NCBI GenBank assembly: GCA_021735645.1
Contig: JAIPGP010000025.1
Coordinates: forward strand, 1-41,379
DNA: 41,379 bases
Direction of reading: 5' to 3'
From: Candidatus Cloacimonadota bacterium
GTDB taxonomy: Bacteria > Cloacimonadota > Cloacimonadia > Cloacimonadales > TCS61
A program made the translations under genes and the position numbers. Under the pieces are notes generated by a model, which saw only the letters and a program-made list of their open reading frames with translations, searched no databases and was not told where the DNA came from. Shown one piece after another: positions 2,223 to 8,771 of the stretch (positions within the stretch are counted from its first letter, which is position 1; each line of letters begins with the position of its first letter).

Positions 2223-2248
2223 CCTATTTGGTTATTTAGCCAAATAGG
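2223..2248. promoter_or_regulatory. Palindromic operator in front of arsR
   Basis: A perfect inverted repeat, CCTATTTGG (2223-2231), 8 nt spacer, CCAAATAGG (2240-2248), lies 35 nt before the arsR start codon. A TTGACC hexamer (2219-2224) overlaps its left arm and TATATT (2250-2255) follows its right arm. Neither spacing is ideal: 25 nt from TTGACC to TATATT, or 16 nt if TTGGTT at 2228-2233 is the -35. Size, symmetry and place fit an ArsR/SmtB dimer site, so autoregulation is inferred. Confidence 0.75.
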
Positions 2249-2282
2249 TTATATTGTATTTATTAATAGATAAGGAGTGATT

Positions 2283-2618
2283 ATGGCGGAGCATAAATGT
2301 GGTTGCAGCAGCGGCGGCGGATGTCAATGTGATAGTTATGAGCAGGAGGCGGGGATATTTAAGGCGATGGGTCATCCTTCGCGTTTGCAGATGATCATGG
2401 CACTGGCGGAGGGCCGCAGATGCGTATGTGAATTACAGGAACTTGTAGGCTCAGATATATCTACAGTATCACGTCATTTGAATGTATTGAAAGATCATGG
2501 GATAGTGAGTTTTCAGAAAGAGGGTAATTATTATTATTACCGATTACTGATGCCTTGTGTACTTGATTTTGTGAATTGTATCAGTAAAGAGAGGGGCTGC
2601 CAGTGTTCACCTGGTTAG
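2283..2618 (+). CDS. arsR: ArsR/SmtB-family metalloregulator
   Basis: This 111-residue winged-helix repressor has the As(III)-type metal site Cys-Val-Cys at 47-49 (RCVCELQEL, compare the ELCVC motif of ArsR), followed by the recognition helix DISTVSRHLNVLKDHG. It is unusually cysteine-rich (10 Cys), with a CGC...CQC cluster at residues 6-16 and CQC at 106-108. The start is the ATG at 2283, because AAGGAG (2272-2277) sits 5 nt before it; the upstream in-frame GTG at 2277 lies inside that ribosome-binding site. The gene leads a six-gene operon and its stop overlaps the next start. It most likely represses the operon until arsenite or a similar thiophile binds. The metal is inferred from the CVC motif only. 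Confidence 0.92.
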   Translation: MAEHKCGCSSGGGCQCDSYEQEAGIFKAMGHPSRLQMIMALAEGRRCVCELQELVGSDISTVSRHLNVLKDHGIVSFQKEGNYYYYRLLMPCVLDFVNCISKERGCQCSPG

Positions 2619-3568
2619 AGAATCTTGTCTGGCTGCTGGTAGAAGACGTATTTGGCCTGGCACGGGGTAGCAATCTGGCAGGTAGTGTCCATTTTTTTAT
2701 CTATGATGTAATCAAGATCTTGATCTTATTATCTTTAATGATCTTTTTGATCTCTTATGTGCGGAGCTATTTTCAGACGGAGCGAACCCGAAAGATAGTA
2801 AGCAAATTCAAGGGTATCCAGGCGAATTTCATGGCGTCGCTTCTGGGCATAGTAACGCCATTTTGTTCATGTTCATCAGTGCCTTTATTTATAGGATTTG
2901 TGGAAGGCGGGATACCATTGGGAGTCACCTTTTCATTTTTGATCACCTCACCAATAGTGAATGAGGCGGCATTTGTGATCCTGCTGGCATCATTTGGGAT
3001 CAAGACTGCAGGGTTATATGTTCTGTGTGGAGTATTGATCGGGACATTAGGAGGCTATTTGATCGGCAGGTTGAAGCTGGAAAGATATGTAGAAGAATAT
3101 GTGTGGAAGCTGCAGATGGGAGCAGGTGGTGAGATTGAGCAGAATCAGAAGGAGCGTCTGGATTTTGCCTGGTCACAACTCCGGGAGATCGTAGGTAGGA
3201 TCTGGATATATTTACTGATCGGAATCGGTATAGGGGCAGCAATTCATGGCTGGGCACCGGAGGCGATACTGGCTCGTTATGCGGGCCCGGAAAATCCACT
3301 GGCAGTGATAGTGGCGGTAATATGCGGTATTCCGTTATATTCCAATGCTTTGGGTGCGATACCCATAGCTGAGGCGTTGATCGGAAAAGGCGTAGGGCTG
3401 GGGACAGCGCTGGCATTTTTGATGGCAGTGACAGCATTATCATTACCGGAGATGATCATTCTGCGAAAAGTGATCAAGGTGAAGCTGATTGCTGCTTTTC
3501 TGGTAATAACCGGCATTGGAATAATTCTGGTTGGATATTTATTTAATGGGATATATCAATATTTATAA
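2603..3568 (+). CDS. COG0701/DUF318 permease, ArsP-like
   Basis: A 321-residue polytopic membrane protein. It carries the family hallmark TPFCSCSSVPLFIGFVEGG (about residues 86-104) and the second conserved block NALGAIPIAEALIGKG near 250-265, in the two-half layout of the COG0701 permeases. Members include ArsP, which exports trivalent organoarsenicals. The CSCSS motif is a plausible thiol site for metalloid. Translation starts at a GTG that overlaps the end of arsR by 16 nt, with AGAGGGG upstream, which indicates translational coupling. Control by ArsR and pairing with a small CxxC thioredoxin support a metalloid efflux role, but the substrate is not shown by the sequence. Confidence 0.88.
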   Translation: MFTWLENLVWLLVEDVFGLARGSNLAGSVHFFIYDVIKILILLSLMIFLISYVRSYFQTERTRKIVSKFKGIQANFMASLLGIVTPFCSCSSVPLFIGFVEGGIPLGVTFSFLITSPIVNEAAFVILLASFGIKTAGLYVLCGVLIGTLGGYLIGRLKLERYVEEYVWKLQMGAGGEIEQNQKERLDFAWSQLREIVGRIWIYLLIGIGIGAAIHGWAPEAILARYAGPENPLAVIVAVICGIPLYSNALGAIPIAEALIGKGVGLGTALAFLMAVTALSLPEMIILRKVIKVKLIAAFLVITGIGIILVGYLFNGIYQYL

Positions 3569-3582
3569 GGAGAAGATTAATA

Positions 3583-3861
3583 ATGGAAATCAAGATCTTA
3601 GGAAGTGGCTGTAAAAAGTGTCATCAACTTGAGAAGAATGTGCGTGATACCGTAGAGAAGCTGCAGTTAGTTGCAGATATCGAGCATGTGACAGATATAG
3701 AGAGGATAATCGGATATGGAGTGATGAGCACCCCTGCACTGGTGGTGGATAATAAAGTAGTATCTACTGGAAAGGTATTAAAGGATAAGGAACTGGAGAG
3801 AGTTTTCATGAGAAGTGAGAAGAAATGTAATCAGACCAGGGATGGTCTGGGTACGCAGTAA
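3583..3861 (+). CDS. Small thioredoxin-fold protein (thioredoxin_3 type)
   Basis: 92 residues. GSGCKKCHQLE gives the redox CxxC at Cys10 and Cys13, and MSTPALV supplies the cis-Pro at residue 51. This matches the compact glutaredoxin-like group often encoded beside COG0701 permeases. It is cytoplasmic (no signal) and could reduce the permease substrate or pass electrons to the CcdA-like protein encoded next. Odd: the last ten residues (83-92, NQTRDGLGTQ) are encoded by a copy of the intergenic hairpin repeat (3829-3858), so the native C-terminus has been extended or replaced. The fold should be complete before that point. Confidence 0.9.
   Translation: MEIKILGSGCKKCHQLEKNVRDTVEKLQLVADIEHVTDIERIIGYGVMSTPALVVDNKVVSTGKVLKDKELERVFMRSEKKCNQTRDGLGTQ
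3824..3861. repeat. Hairpin repeat forming the 3' end of the thioredoxin gene
   Basis: CAGACCA (3832-3838), GGGA, TGGTCTG (3843-3849), then GGTACGCAG. The left flank AATGTAATCAGA and right flank GGTACGCA also surround the hairpins at 30156 and 30891, and 581-600 has the same stem. Here the element lies inside an open frame and supplies the stop region. Confidence 0.85.
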
Positions 3862-3884
3862 TAATTAATCGGGAGAAAAGAAAG

Positions 3885-4580
3885 ATGCTGGAAAATATTG
3901 CGACGGCACTATATGGCTCGCCGGTAAGTGCGATACTTGCCTCATTTATCTGGGGGATTTTTAGCGTATTGCTAAGTCCCTGTCATTTATCGAGCATTCC
4001 TCTGGTGATAGGCTATATAAACCGTCAGGAAGGACTAAAGCCTCGGGACGGATTTCTGATCGGGTTGTTTTTTTCCTTAGGAATACTGGTTACCTTAGTG
4101 TTGATAGCCATTTTATCTTTTCTGGTGGGGATTCTACTGGGTCCGGTGCAGCTAATTTTTCAGATATTTGTGAGTTTACTGTTATTTTTAGCCGGTTTGT
4201 ATTTTCTGGAACTGCTGCCTTTCAATATAGGCATGGAAATGATCGACCGGGGGATAACAAAACACCGTTACTGGAATGGATTTTATCTGGGTATCTTATT
4301 AGGAGTAGGGCTGGGAGTATGTGCTCTGGCATTTATGGCACCAGTGCTGAGCATCAGCATCAGTAGTTTTGAGAGCATGCCCCTATTCAGTATTGGACTG
4401 GTAATGGCATTTATAATAGGGCATTGCGGTATAATCGCCGGGGCGGGAGGATTTCTGGAATTGATCAAGAAGCTTTTGCGTTGGAATAATCAGTCATCCG
4501 GCACAACGTATATCCGTAAGATCAGCGGTATAATACTGATAATAGCCGGGATATTCAATGTGCTAAAAAATGTATTTTAA
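3885..4580 (+). CDS. CcdA/DsbD-beta-like transmembrane thiol transporter
   Basis: 231 residues with about six membrane segments. The two redox cysteines of the family are visible: Cys33 in LSPCHLSSIP and Cys146 in GVGLGVCALAFMAPVL. CcdA-type proteins carry reducing equivalents from cytoplasmic thioredoxin to an exported thioredoxin. The flanking genes encode exactly such partners: a cytoplasmic CxxC protein upstream and an exported one downstream. Another possible role is cytochrome c maturation, but no heme gene lies nearby, so a dedicated role in this operon is more likely. Confidence 0.88.
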   Translation: MLENIATALYGSPVSAILASFIWGIFSVLLSPCHLSSIPLVIGYINRQEGLKPRDGFLIGLFFSLGILVTLVLIAILSFLVGILLGPVQLIFQIFVSLLLFLAGLYFLELLPFNIGMEMIDRGITKHRYWNGFYLGILLGVGLGVCALAFMAPVLSISISSFESMPLFSIGLVMAFIIGHCGIIAGAGGFLELIKKLLRWNNQSSGTTYIRKISGIILIIAGIFNVLKNVF

Positions 4581-4592
4581 AGGAGACAAGAG

Positions 4593-4916
4593 ATGAGGAT
4601 GTTAGCGGAATTTTTTCCTGAGTTTAGTGAGAAGTTATCAGAGCTTGATACTTTATATGAATCCAGTCGCAGTATTGATGAGAAGACATATCAATTCATT
4701 TGTTTTGCCTTATCGATCAAGTCAAGGTCAAAGCCTTGTGTATTAAAGCATTTTAAGGGAGCTTTAGAAGCTGGTGCCACAGTGCAGGAGCTGAGTTATA
4801 TTCTGGCGCTGGTGATGCGGGAGGCAGCGGGAGCAGATGACTGCTGGACGCATGATGTGATTGGAGACTGGAAGGAAATATTAAAAAACAACGTGAAATG
4901 CACGTGTGAGGTGTGA
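4593..4916 (+). CDS. Carboxymuconolactone decarboxylase/AhpD-like protein, monothiol
   Basis: 107 residues with an AhpD-like alpha-helical core: SRSKPCVLKHFKGALEAGAT (44-63) followed by the VQELSYILALVMREAAGA helix. The family's CxxCxxxH site is reduced to SxxCxxxH (Ser46, Cys49, His53), so it cannot form the usual internal disulfide. Other cysteines (Cys37, Cys84, Cys103, Cys105) could substitute. A GGAG site precedes the ATG. A redox or peroxide-related role with the neighbouring thioredoxins is inferred. It lacks the features needed to call a true decarboxylase. Confidence 0.8.
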   Translation: MRMLAEFFPEFSEKLSELDTLYESSRSIDEKTYQFICFALSIKSRSKPCVLKHFKGALEAGATVQELSYILALVMREAAGADDCWTHDVIGDWKEILKNNVKCTCEV

Positions 4917-4918
4917 TA

Positions 4919-5320
4919 ATGAGAAAGCTGATATTATTAATAATATTATGTACAGTGACAGGTCTTTTATGGTCAGAAGAAGTTATAGAGCCGGAAATAG
5001 TCAGTCTGGATAGTCAAGTGGTATTGAAGCCGGAGGTAACATTTCTGGAATTTGGATCGACGACCTGCATACCGTGTAAGATGATGGAAGAGGTGATGGA
5101 CGAGGTTCGCTCTGCATATTCTGAACAGGTGGAAGTGGTATTCCACAATGTAAATGAGGAGCGGGAACTAGCGGTAGAATATGGGATCAAGATGATCCCA
5201 ACCCAGATATTTCTTGACAGGGAGGGCAAGGAATTCCATCGTCATGTAGGATATTATCCCAGCGAAGAAATCGGCAAGGTTTTATTAGAAAGAGGGATTA
5301 AGCCGGTAGTAAAAGAATAA
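4919..5320 (+). CDS. Exported thioredoxin-like protein
   Basis: 133 residues: a signal peptide (hydrophobic 4-17, cleavage probably near residue 19), then a thioredoxin fold with STTCIPCKMM (Cys50, Cys53) and IPTQIF (cis-Pro94). The ATG at 4919 is preferred over the GTG at 4913 because GAGGTG (4908-4913) sits 5 nt upstream and the signal then starts MRK. As the last gene of the ars-type operon it is the likely periplasmic acceptor of electrons from the CcdA-like protein. Its final target is unknown; the exported domain of the permease or misoxidised thiols are candidates. Confidence 0.88.
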   Translation: MRKLILLIILCTVTGLLWSEEVIEPEIVSLDSQVVLKPEVTFLEFGSTTCIPCKMMEEVMDEVRSAYSEQVEVVFHNVNEERELAVEYGIKMIPTQIFLDREGKEFHRHVGYYPSEEIGKVLLERGIKPVVKE

Positions 5321-5438: not shown

Positions 5439-8400
5439 ATGAAAAAATCATTACTTGTTTTACTCACAATTTTCTTAACCTTGGTAATACATGCTGAGGT
5501 AATAGAGATTAATGGCAGTGGACTGAATGTAAACGTGCTCAGTTCAGATGAAGGCGTAAGTGTATTAGCGTTGGAATTAGGCAGTTTTAATCGTGAAGCA
5601 GTCACGATTAATGGAGAAATGTGGTGGCGTGTAGGACTTGCAGGAGAAAGTCGCACCCAGACTGCGGGCAGCCCGGAAGTGGCACGAATCGTCCGAAATC
5701 TGGCAATCTCAGATGCCGGCTTAATGGAAGTGGAAGTGCTGTCCAGCGAATATGTGGAATATGAAATGTCAATAGCTCCCAGCCGGGGAATCATGTCGCG
5801 TAGTATAGATCCCGCAACAGTACCTTTTGAGTTTGGAGCGGACTATGAGGAAGACAGTTTTTATCCGGAAAACATAGCAAGTTTACAGACACCTTACATC
5901 TTTCGTGATGTACGTGGAATAGGTGTAAATATCATGCCCATGCAGTATAATCCTGTAAGCGGAGTATTGCGGGTGTACACAAATGTGACTTTGTCAGTAG
6001 CGAATATAGGCAGAGATACAGTGAATATCAAAGAGAACCGCAGCAGTTTCCGGCCGGAATTTGTGAAGTTATATGAGCGGGAGTTTATAAACTGGTCAGA
6101 ATACCTGTCATCAACGCGTTATGATCAGATAGCTGAAACAGCGGGTCGGATGATAGTGATCAGTTATCCTGATTTCATGGACGAGATGCAGCCTTTTGTG
6201 GACTGGAAGAATCAGAAAGGGATAGCAACAACACTTGAAGATGTAAGTGTGATAGGAAATAATTCGACCAGTATTCAGAATTTCATCACCACAGAATATG
6301 AAGCCGGAGATGGGCTTGTCTGGATTTTATTAGTAGGCGATGCTAATCAGGTAGCCACCAAGGCATATTCAGGAGCTGGAGGCGACCCGCAATATACTTA
6401 TCTGGAAGGCAATGATAATTATTCCGAGATATTTATCGGCAGATTTTCGGCAGAGACAGAGTCGCAGGTAGAGACCCAGGTAGAGCGGAGTATCTATTAT
6501 GAACGCGATGTAGTAGATGGAGACTGGATGCAGAAGGGAGTGGGTATAGCCTCCTCTCAGGGTTCTGGACAGGGTCATTATGGCGAAGCGGATTATACTC
6601 ATATAGGTTATATCCGTGATGATCTGCTGGATTATGGTTATCTGGAAGTAGATGAGATATATGATACTAATGGCGGCAATGCCACTATGGTGGCAAATGC
6701 CTTGAATGAAGGTCGTGGAATAATAAATTACTGCGGTCATGGTTCAAATACAACCTGGGTTTCAACCGGATTTTCTAATACACATGTGAATGCACTCACC
6801 AATGATTATATGCTTCCTATTATAAATTCCATTGCCTGTGTGAACGGTAATTTCACGAGTACGACGTGTTTTGCCGAAGCCTGGATGCGTGCTACCAATG
6901 GCGATGCACCTACGGGAGCAACAGCAATATTTGCCTCATCGATCAATCAGAGCTGGGCACCGCCCATGTATGCCCAGGATGAATCTATAGATCTAATGAT
7001 AGCCGAAGAATTAAACACTTTGGGCGGATTATGGTTCAATGGAGTATCTTATATGCTGGATGAGAGTGGAGATGATGCCATGGCTAAGACCTGGCATATA
7101 TTTGGAGATCCATCTCTGCAGATACGGACAATGGAGCCAGTTGCCATGGAGATAGAGCATCTTCCCACAGCTTTTATTGGTTTACCTGAATTTGAAGTTG
7201 CTACAGATGCCCCCAATGCCATGTATTGCCTGAGTTATGATGGAATGATGATAGATAATGGTTATGCTGATGAGAATGGCGACTTTGTGATAGATATGAC
7301 CAATGCTCCGGCTATGCCGGCAGATCTGGAATTAACTATAACAGCGTATAATAAGATAAGTTCAGAAGAAATAATTCAGTTATTACCTAATGATGGTCCT
7401 TATATGTTGTTGCATTCCTTTGAAATAGACAGTAATGGCGATGAGGTGATAGATGCCGGAGAGACGGTGAATGTGAGTCTTAATATAGAGAATCTGGGGA
7501 GCGAGCAGGCAACCAATACAGTATTGAGCCTGACAATAGATGACCCATATATCACAGTGACAGACGGCGAAGAAGTATTGGGAGATGTAGCATCATCAAC
7601 ATTACTTAATCTGGCAGACATTTTTAGTTTTGAAGTTTCAGATGCGATCAATTTCGGTCATCCTTTCGAGGTGACTTTCACGATAAGCTGTGATGAAGCT
7701 GAGTGGGTGGAAGCTTATGTTCTGGCGAGTTATGCTCCTCCGGGATTATGGATAACGCCAGAAGATTTGAGTTTTGAAATTATACAGGGCGAACGCGAAA
7801 GCAGCCAATTAGAAATATCTAATTACTCTGATGAGCCGGTATATTATTCATTACGGACAGAAGCGGTATCCAATCGCAGCATAGAAGGCTCATTTGTGGA
7901 GTGTAGTACGCATCATTTTGAGCCGGGCGAGGTAGTAACCTGGGTATTCAGCGTCACGAATAACAGTGTAGATGACGAATGGATAGAAGGCTTAATGATA
8001 AATTTCCCTGCGGGAGTGAACGTGGTTACTGTCAGTGATTTCATTGGCGGCACAGGTGGACCTCTGGAATGGGACGGAGTAAGTGGAGAAGGAGTGGAAA
8101 TCAACTGGTTTGGCACAACCCCGAGTGGATATGGCAGATTGCGAGATGGCGAGACGGCAGTAAGTGAAATCAGTGTAGAGATCAGTGCTGGATTCACGGG
8201 TGAATTAGCTCTGGAATGGCGTTTAAATGGAGATGGCTATGGTCTGGAGCCCCATGATCTGTTTGGTGAGATAGTACTTGAATACCCGTTAAGCTGGGTA
8301 GAATTAAGCGAAATAGAAGGGGAACTGGGCTACGGAGAAGCTGCCATAATAGAAGTAACTGTTGATACAGAGGAACTTACCGTGGGCATTCATCAGTGTG

Positions 8401-8771
8401 AAATAGTGATCACAGATAATCGTCTGGAAACTCGAATTCCTTTAACTGTGGAAGTATTAGAAGCAAACGGGACAGATGACACAGATATCACTGAGGCAGC
8501 TGGTTTATTGGGGAATTATCCCAATCCATTCAATCCTGAGACTGAAATCCGGTTCCTGATGCCAGAATCCGGGGATGTGAGTCTGACAATCTACAATGTG
8601 AGAGGTCAGGTTGTGAAAACAATTTCTCTGGCAGGTATTTCAGCAGGAGAACACAGTGTCATCTGGAAGGGAGTTGACCAGACCGGCAGAGCTGTGAGCA
8701 GTGGGGTATATTTTTGTAAATTCAGTACCAGCGATTATACAACGACGAAAAAGATGGTATTAATGAAGTAA
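5439..8771 (+). CDS. Secreted gingipain-like C25 cysteine protease with C-terminal sorting domain
   Basis: 1110 residues. In order: signal peptide (1-19); gingipain-type propeptide (about 20-230); C25 catalytic domain from about 234 to 570 with catalytic His434 in NYCGHGSNTTW and Cys467 in NSIACVNGNF; a CARDB/Ig-like module starting at SFEIDSNGDEVIDAGETVNV (about 658); a further beta-rich region; and a C-terminal FlgD-Ig-like/type A sorting domain beginning LGNYPNPFNPETEIRF (Tyr1027) and ending VYFCKF...KKMVLMK. The last domain is the signal used by type IX secretion in the FCB group, so surface display or release is expected. No T9SS component is in the window. GGAGGG precedes the ATG, and a terminator follows, so the gene is probably its own unit. 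Confidence 0.93.
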   Translation: MKKSLLVLLTIFLTLVIHAEVIEINGSGLNVNVLSSDEGVSVLALELGSFNREAVTINGEMWWRVGLAGESRTQTAGSPEVARIVRNLAISDAGLMEVEVLSSEYVEYEMSIAPSRGIMSRSIDPATVPFEFGADYEEDSFYPENIASLQTPYIFRDVRGIGVNIMPMQYNPVSGVLRVYTNVTLSVANIGRDTVNIKENRSSFRPEFVKLYEREFINWSEYLSSTRYDQIAETAGRMIVISYPDFMDEMQPFVDWKNQKGIATTLEDVSVIGNNSTSIQNFITTEYEAGDGLVWILLVGDANQVATKAYSGAGGDPQYTYLEGNDNYSEIFIGRFSAETESQVETQVERSIYYERDVVDGDWMQKGVGIASSQGSGQGHYGEADYTHIGYIRDDLLDYGYLEVDEIYDTNGGNATMVANALNEGRGIINYCGHGSNTTWVSTGFSNTHVNALTNDYMLPIINSIACVNGNFTSTTCFAEAWMRATNGDAPTGATAIFASSINQSWAPPMYAQDESIDLMIAEELNTLGGLWFNGVSYMLDESGDDAMAKTWHIFGDPSLQIRTMEPVAMEIEHLPTAFIGLPEFEVATDAPNAMYCLSYDGMMIDNGYADENGDFVIDMTNAPAMPADLELTITAYNKISSEEIIQLLPNDGPYMLLHSFEIDSNGDEVIDAGETVNVSLNIENLGSEQATNTVLSLTIDDPYITVTDGEEVLGDVASSTLLNLADIFSFEVSDAINFGHPFEVTFTISCDEAEWVEAYVLASYAPPGLWITPEDLSFEIIQGERESSQLEISNYSDEPVYYSLRTEAVSNRSIEGSFVECSTHHFEPGEVVTWVFSVTNNSVDDEWIEGLMINFPAGVNVVTVSDFIGGTGGPLEWDGVSGEGVEINWFGTTPSGYGRLRDGETAVSEISVEISAGFTGELALEWRLNGDGYGLEPHDLFGEIVLEYPLSWVELSEIEGELGYGEAAIIEVTVDTEELTVGIHQCEIVITDNRLETRIPLTVEVLEANGTDDTDITEAAGLLGNYPNPFNPETEIRFLMPESGDVSLTIYNVRGQVVKTISLAGISAGEHSVIWKGVDQTGRAVSSGVYFCKFSTSDYTTTKKMVLMK

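Follow-up and report, generated by a model that had tools for sequence, protein, structure and literature searches.

The association of CcdA-type membrane proteins and thioredoxins with ars operons has been known since Castillo and Saier (2010; PMC2963123), who described 8 instances, 7 of them with arsC, and linked them to arsenate reductase. The permease ArsP has been reviewed as an exporter of trivalent organoarsenicals (PMC6205960). ArsEFG is reported to confer organoarsenical resistance (Chen, Zhang and Rosen 2019, cited in PMC9144182); it resembles the operon examined here in having a cytoplasmic ArsE-family thioredoxin, an exported thioredoxin-like protein and a DsbD-type membrane protein. 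The present operon, from a Candidatus Cloacimonadota bacterium, carries the same three redox protein types as the set of Castillo and Saier, together with arsR and arsP. It differs from that set in lacking arsC (an unlinked ArsC-like gene is found elsewhere in the genome, G000:C106:43595), and it is a variant in which ArsP is the constant partner. A conserved operator and an added gene for a five-cysteine AhpD-like protein further distinguish it.

The window, that is, the whole stretch of DNA analyzed, comprises 41,379 nucleotides of contig JAIPGP010000025.1. Six open reading frames, all on one strand between positions 2277 and 5320, were found in the place and order given in a preliminary description of this DNA (Table 1). 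They are separated by -16, 14, 23, 12 and -4 bases. Just 5' of the operon (2040-2103) there is a hairpin-forming tandem extragenic repeat in two copies, AATGCTTAATCGGGG.CGATTAAGCTACGTA. Directly 3' of it, positions 5439-8771 encode a Peptidase C25 (gingipain-type) with a type IX secretion sorting tail. On the other side, a minus-strand gene at 712-1776, pointing away from the operon, encodes a DUF362 protein with two 4Fe-4S clusters and a signal-like N-terminus.

Table 1. Genes and predicted operator of the operon, in window positions
Feature	Position	Strand	Family match or remark
ArsR operator palindrome (predicted), CTATTTGG-N8-CCAAATAG	2224..2247		single genome copy, conserved 5' of arsR
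arsR repressor	2277..2618	+	PF01022/NF033788; ATG at 2283 likelier start
arsP-type permease (COG0701), 321 aa	2603..3568	+	PF03773
cytoplasmic ArsE/MTH895-type thioredoxin, active site CKKC	3583..3861	+	TIGR00412
CcdA-type transmembrane thiol carrier, cysteines 33 (SPCH) and 146	3885..4580	+	relatives match PF02683
five-cysteine AhpD/CMD-like protein, inserted accessory gene	4593..4916	+	PF02627
exported thioredoxin, signal peptide then CIPC	4913..5320	+	PF00085; ATG at 4919 likelier start

The palindrome that had been placed at 2223-2248 is present, and the more precisely defined element forms its centre. This putative operator occurs once in the 3.77-Mb genome. With two mismatches or fewer, it precedes arsR at 22 of 32 related loci, against an expectation of 0.15 for shuffled DNA; 13 of these 22 matches were perfect. 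The same element was seen in loci of SAR324 and Spirochaetales. A promoter scan gave matches no better than the chance level. The repressor matches NF033788 with 82.5 bits, above the cut-off, and contains a CVCEL site and a C-terminal PC-V-L-D-F-x-x-C helix, the cysteines of which are conserved in the relatives compared. The CVC site and the conserved C-terminal cysteines fit a role in arsenic sensing, as judged by comparison with the E. coli ArsR sequence.

The permease matches PF03773 (ArsP_1) with 238.4 bits (cut-off, 32.3). This match, its TPFCSCS motif and its arsenic context are features in common with the ArsP methylarsenite efflux permease. On the other hand, it falls below every NCBIfam subfamily cut-off, its relatives comprise 320- and 440-residue forms, and its substrate is a predicted one. 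The nearest NCBIfam models are SaoE of the SAO organometal system (98 bits against a cut-off of 325) and SO_0444 (87 bits against 300); assignment to SaoE was dropped on this score. No sequence relative with a solved structure was found for the permease. A second full-length ArsP-family gene is present in the genome, on contig C11.

The three relay proteins were assigned as follows. The cytoplasmic thioredoxin matches TIGR00412 (MTH895/ArsE) with 100.8 bits (cut-off, 62), and its CxxC is kept in every relative listed. The CcdA-type protein of the window itself has no family match and misses DsbD_TM (PF02683), which 23 of its 28 relatives match. A profile of these relatives matches the solved CcdA structure 5VKV with an E value of 1.5e-9, and C33 and C146, invariant in the 28 sequences, align with the two PC sites of 5VKV. 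By sequence comparison, the fourth protein of the operon is probably CcdA-type. The second cysteine site reads GVC in place of GPC in the sister genome, and likewise in the window (GLGVC). The predicted carrier shares its two membrane cysteines with the DsbD/CcdA outward electron carriers, but belongs to a distinct SPCHLxSIP ... GHC subfamily that is clustered with an ars-type permease and with its own donor and acceptor thioredoxins. The exported thioredoxin matches PF00085 with 48 bits and has a hydrophobic signal sequence preceding CIPC; its relatives keep CxPC and the hydrophobic N-terminus, and several have a lipobox-like cysteine. At many loci (L041:3931-4998 and similar), the exported thioredoxin has 350 residues, and its N-terminal part is SurA-like. 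The genome holds 26 copies of a 19-base palindromic repeat, CAGACCAGGGATGGTCTGG, in tandem in places; of its window copies, at 582-600 and 3832-3850, the latter lies within the ArsE-type thioredoxin gene, at its 3' end, and adds to the protein a tail without counterpart in relatives.

Conservation of the redox genes with the permease in relatives, on which the preliminary description had staked its reading, was found. Within the phylum, approximately 46 of the 125 genomes encode a CcdA-type protein, and ArsP lies within 6 kb of its gene at 39 of the 46 loci, with an ArsP fragment at 2 more; the other 5 are on short contigs or near contig ends. Forty-three loci were mapped, and 25 of these had enough flanking DNA. 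Among the 25, ArsP and the ArsE-type thioredoxin were present at all, the exported thioredoxin at 24, ArsR at 22, and the AhpD-like protein at 2. The conserved unit consists of ArsR, the ArsP-family permease, the ArsE-type thioredoxin, the exported thioredoxin and the CcdA-type protein. Since this membership is constant despite a gene order that varies between loci, function rather than simple descent appears to hold the set together. The converse association is weaker, with the CcdA relay at 37 of 61 high-scoring ArsP loci. A search of plasmid collections detected no close relative of either the CcdA-type or the AhpD-like protein.

The arsenic reading of the operon is strong, because Acr3 is encoded within 6 kb of 20 of the 46 CcdA genes, there being only 31 such Acr3 genes in the 125 genomes, and because arsenate reductases (ArsC) are frequent neighbours of the relay loci, as are DGC-domain proteins. 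Acr3 was not found in the genome of the window, and the ArsC-like gene there is unlinked; therefore, the ArsP of the operon may be the main arsenic exit of this organism.

On this basis, the operon is probably an ArsR-controlled resistance operon, directed against trivalent organoarsenicals and/or arsenite and equipped with an outward thiol relay of its own. Further points in its favour are the conserved operator, the two CcdA cysteine sites that align with those of a true CcdA, the exchange of CcdA at three loci for ArsF and ArsG, which are families known from arsenic resistance, and the closeness of the AhpD-like gene to ars-type genes, the last two described below. Arsenic would bind to the ArsR cysteines and free the operator, and trivalent arsenic would be exported by ArsP. 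Electrons taken up in the cytoplasm by the ArsE-type thioredoxin would reach the exported CIPC thioredoxin by way of the CcdA-type protein and its two membrane cysteines. The exported thioredoxin would reduce a target on the outer side of the membrane, most likely the arsenical itself or oxidized or blocked thiols at the pump outlet. Counting against this explanation, arsC, acr3 and arsM are absent from the window operon, and no periplasmic arsenic enzyme that plainly needs electrons is encoded. In addition, ArsC is cytoplasmic, so that a transmembrane path is unneeded for it (Castillo and Saier, PMC2963123), and the model scores of the permease described above would also allow another soft metal or metalloid.

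An alternative is a different use of the same electrons: reduction by the relay of an organoarsenical, such as a nitro-aromatic or pentavalent one, either at the membrane or beyond it, followed by export of the product through ArsP, as in an ArsEFG-like system. Of 20 ArsP loci without the CcdA relay, 3 encode ArsF, ArsG and an additional thioredoxin in its place. At these loci (L181, L184 and L188), ArsF and ArsG occupy the position of CcdA beside ArsP and the ArsE-type thioredoxin, and a further lipoprotein-like thioredoxin of 330 residues is present. ArsG is named an efflux permease in NCBIfam. The ArsG of L188, however, matches DsbD_2 (PF13386) with 63.6 bits and carries cysteines in SPCP and FCP sites, and ArsG sequences can be aligned along their length to the CcdA family found in the operon (hhalign probability, 96.8%). 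The DsbD-type match and the placement at three loci suggest that ArsG is an electron carrier rather than a permease, and that ArsG and CcdA may do the same job of outward electron transfer. These observations, together with the ArsE family membership of the window thioredoxin and the organoarsenical resistance reported for ArsEFG, favour the ArsEFG-like alternative. Nevertheless, the exported thioredoxin of the window scored 13.8 bits against the ArsF cut-off of 60 and the CcdA-type protein gave no match to the ArsG model, so that both assignments were dropped; ArsF/ArsG and CcdA share one place, but at different loci of the phylum. Nitro-aromatic arsenicals are, moreover, man-made feed additives and improbable as natural substrates. 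We regard this alternative as rather unlikely.

Two further explanations concern the cargo of the permease and the ordinary duties of the relay. The operon could export another soft metal or organometal (mercury, copper or antimony), with the thiol proteins protecting against that metal. The best subfamily scores of the permease are to two metal exporters, SaoE and SO_0444, and none of the arsenic subfamilies was matched; both scores are nevertheless far below their cut-offs, the commonest extra genes at the relay loci, Acr3 and ArsC, are specific for arsenic and antimony, and ArsM is encoded near the AhpD-like gene in some loci. Export of another metal is thus quite improbable. Alternatively, the CcdA-type protein and the thioredoxins might have general tasks in periplasmic disulfide or cytochrome c maturation and merely share a promoter with arsP. 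They do belong to the CcdA superfamily, and no ordinary DsbD_TM match was found in the genome, which could make the window protein its sole carrier; this is weak evidence because the model misses the window protein too. Cytochrome c maturation genes did not recur beside the relay in the loci examined. Furthermore, the set is confined to approximately 46 of the 125 genomes and always accompanied by ars-type genes where the flanks allow, which shows that its genes are not housekeeping genes; this explanation is very unlikely. The arsenic resistance operon with its own outward relay is the reading retained here as the most probable.

Within this arsenic resistance reading, the AhpD-like protein stands apart. 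A continuous electron path from cytoplasm to periplasm had been proposed with this protein as one of its members. All parts for a cytoplasm-to-periplasm thiol path are indeed present, but the AhpD-like protein was dropped as a link because it accompanies only 2 of the 25 relays and occurs elsewhere without CcdA. The description of it as monothiol was likewise dropped: CxxC is missing, but the protein has five cysteines. C37, C49, C84, C103 and C105, as well as S46, H53 and H87, are invariant in 75 of 75 aligned sequences, with Ser 46 in place of the first Cys of CxxC in all 75. There is no visible signal peptide. PF02627 is matched narrowly (24.4 bits; cut-off, 23), and TIGR00778, the AhpD core-domain model, gave 21.8 bits, under its cut-off of 27.8; because of this score and the lack of CxxC, assignment to the AhpD family was abandoned. 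Sequence and fold likeness to AhpD/carboxymuconolactone decarboxylase (CMD) proteins (3bey; RclX, 7y4r) is weak but consistent. C49 and H53 are placed as the second Cys and the His of the CxxCxxxH of those proteins, from which the AhpD-like protein differs in lacking CxxC and in having invariant C37, C49 and C84 and a C-terminal CxC. The predicted structure is of low confidence (pLDDT 61) and usable for helix order and CMD-type fold matches; the best PDB fold matches of this model were CMD proteins.

Comparison with the sister genome (G088) and an outgroup (G083) showed that the exported thioredoxin gene directly follows the CcdA gene in both; the AhpD-like gene is absent from the sister genome. 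In the window, the AhpD-like gene is inserted after the sister-shared stretch AGGAGAYAAGAGATGAGG and has thereby acquired the thioredoxin gene's ribosome site. The AhpD-like proteins of operons in the phylum are approximately 80-84% identical to each other, whereas their CcdA proteins are only 36-50% identical to that of the window. A genome scan yielded 216 relatives of the AhpD-like protein, of which the best 80 were analyzed and 75 aligned. The best 80 of the 216, a choice that favours high identity, are 76-89% identical and come from Bacillota, Desulfobacterota, Spirochaetota, Chloroflexota, Synergistota, methanogens and others. The cultured Desulfosarcina cetonica (L163) carries both the relay and the AhpD-like gene. 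The tree of this protein is poorly resolved, with 2 starred branches of 74. It does not prove transfer of the gene; the scattered placement, the presence and absence between genomes and the insertion suggest it.

Among the best 80 of the 216 relatives, those outside Methanosarcinaceae lie near ars-type genes in 46 of 55 cases, and near ArsR, ArsP and the ArsE-type thioredoxin together in 31 of 55. The density of ars-type genes outside Methanosarcinaceae was 0.28/kb near the AhpD-like gene and 0.02/kb far from it, a 13-fold difference. Within Methanosarcinaceae, only 2 of 25 (again of the best 80 of 216) lie near ars-type genes, and a wider role of the protein is thus possible. The gene in Methanosarcinaceae stands apart from arsR, arsP and the thioredoxin gene and is often followed by a gene for a cysteine-containing DUF6951 protein (L113, L140, L142, L145, L149, L159, L176 and others). 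At L085:1393-1773, the end of an AhpD-like reading frame reads into an ArsC-like C-terminal stretch, forming a hybrid or decaying gene.

A literature search, mostly of sources other than subscription journals, returned no description of the AhpD-like protein or of an ArsP-linked CcdA relay. From sequence and gene neighbourhood, the AhpD-like protein forms an unnamed family, usually beside arsR-arsP-trx, and may be a new arsenic-handling protein. It would be a separate cytoplasmic module and a later arrival in the operon, and its five cysteines suggest a role in the binding or reduction of arsenicals alongside the ArsE-type thioredoxin. We put forward, tentatively and as less probable than not in its combined form, that it represents an unrecognized type of arsenic-handling protein, very strongly conserved among anaerobic bacteria and archaea, which acts together with ArsP and the ArsE-type thioredoxin, and that ArsG is a CcdA-type electron carrier exchangeable with the CcdA of the operon.

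If the proposed function is correct, some anaerobes would couple arsenic export to transmembrane electron delivery, which is outside the usual ArsP and Acr3 models. There would then be a testable reason for the presence of CcdA, ArsE, ArsF and ArsG genes in ars operons, and the reported permease role of ArsG would be doubtful. The analysis also points to a widespread five-cysteine protein without an assigned function.
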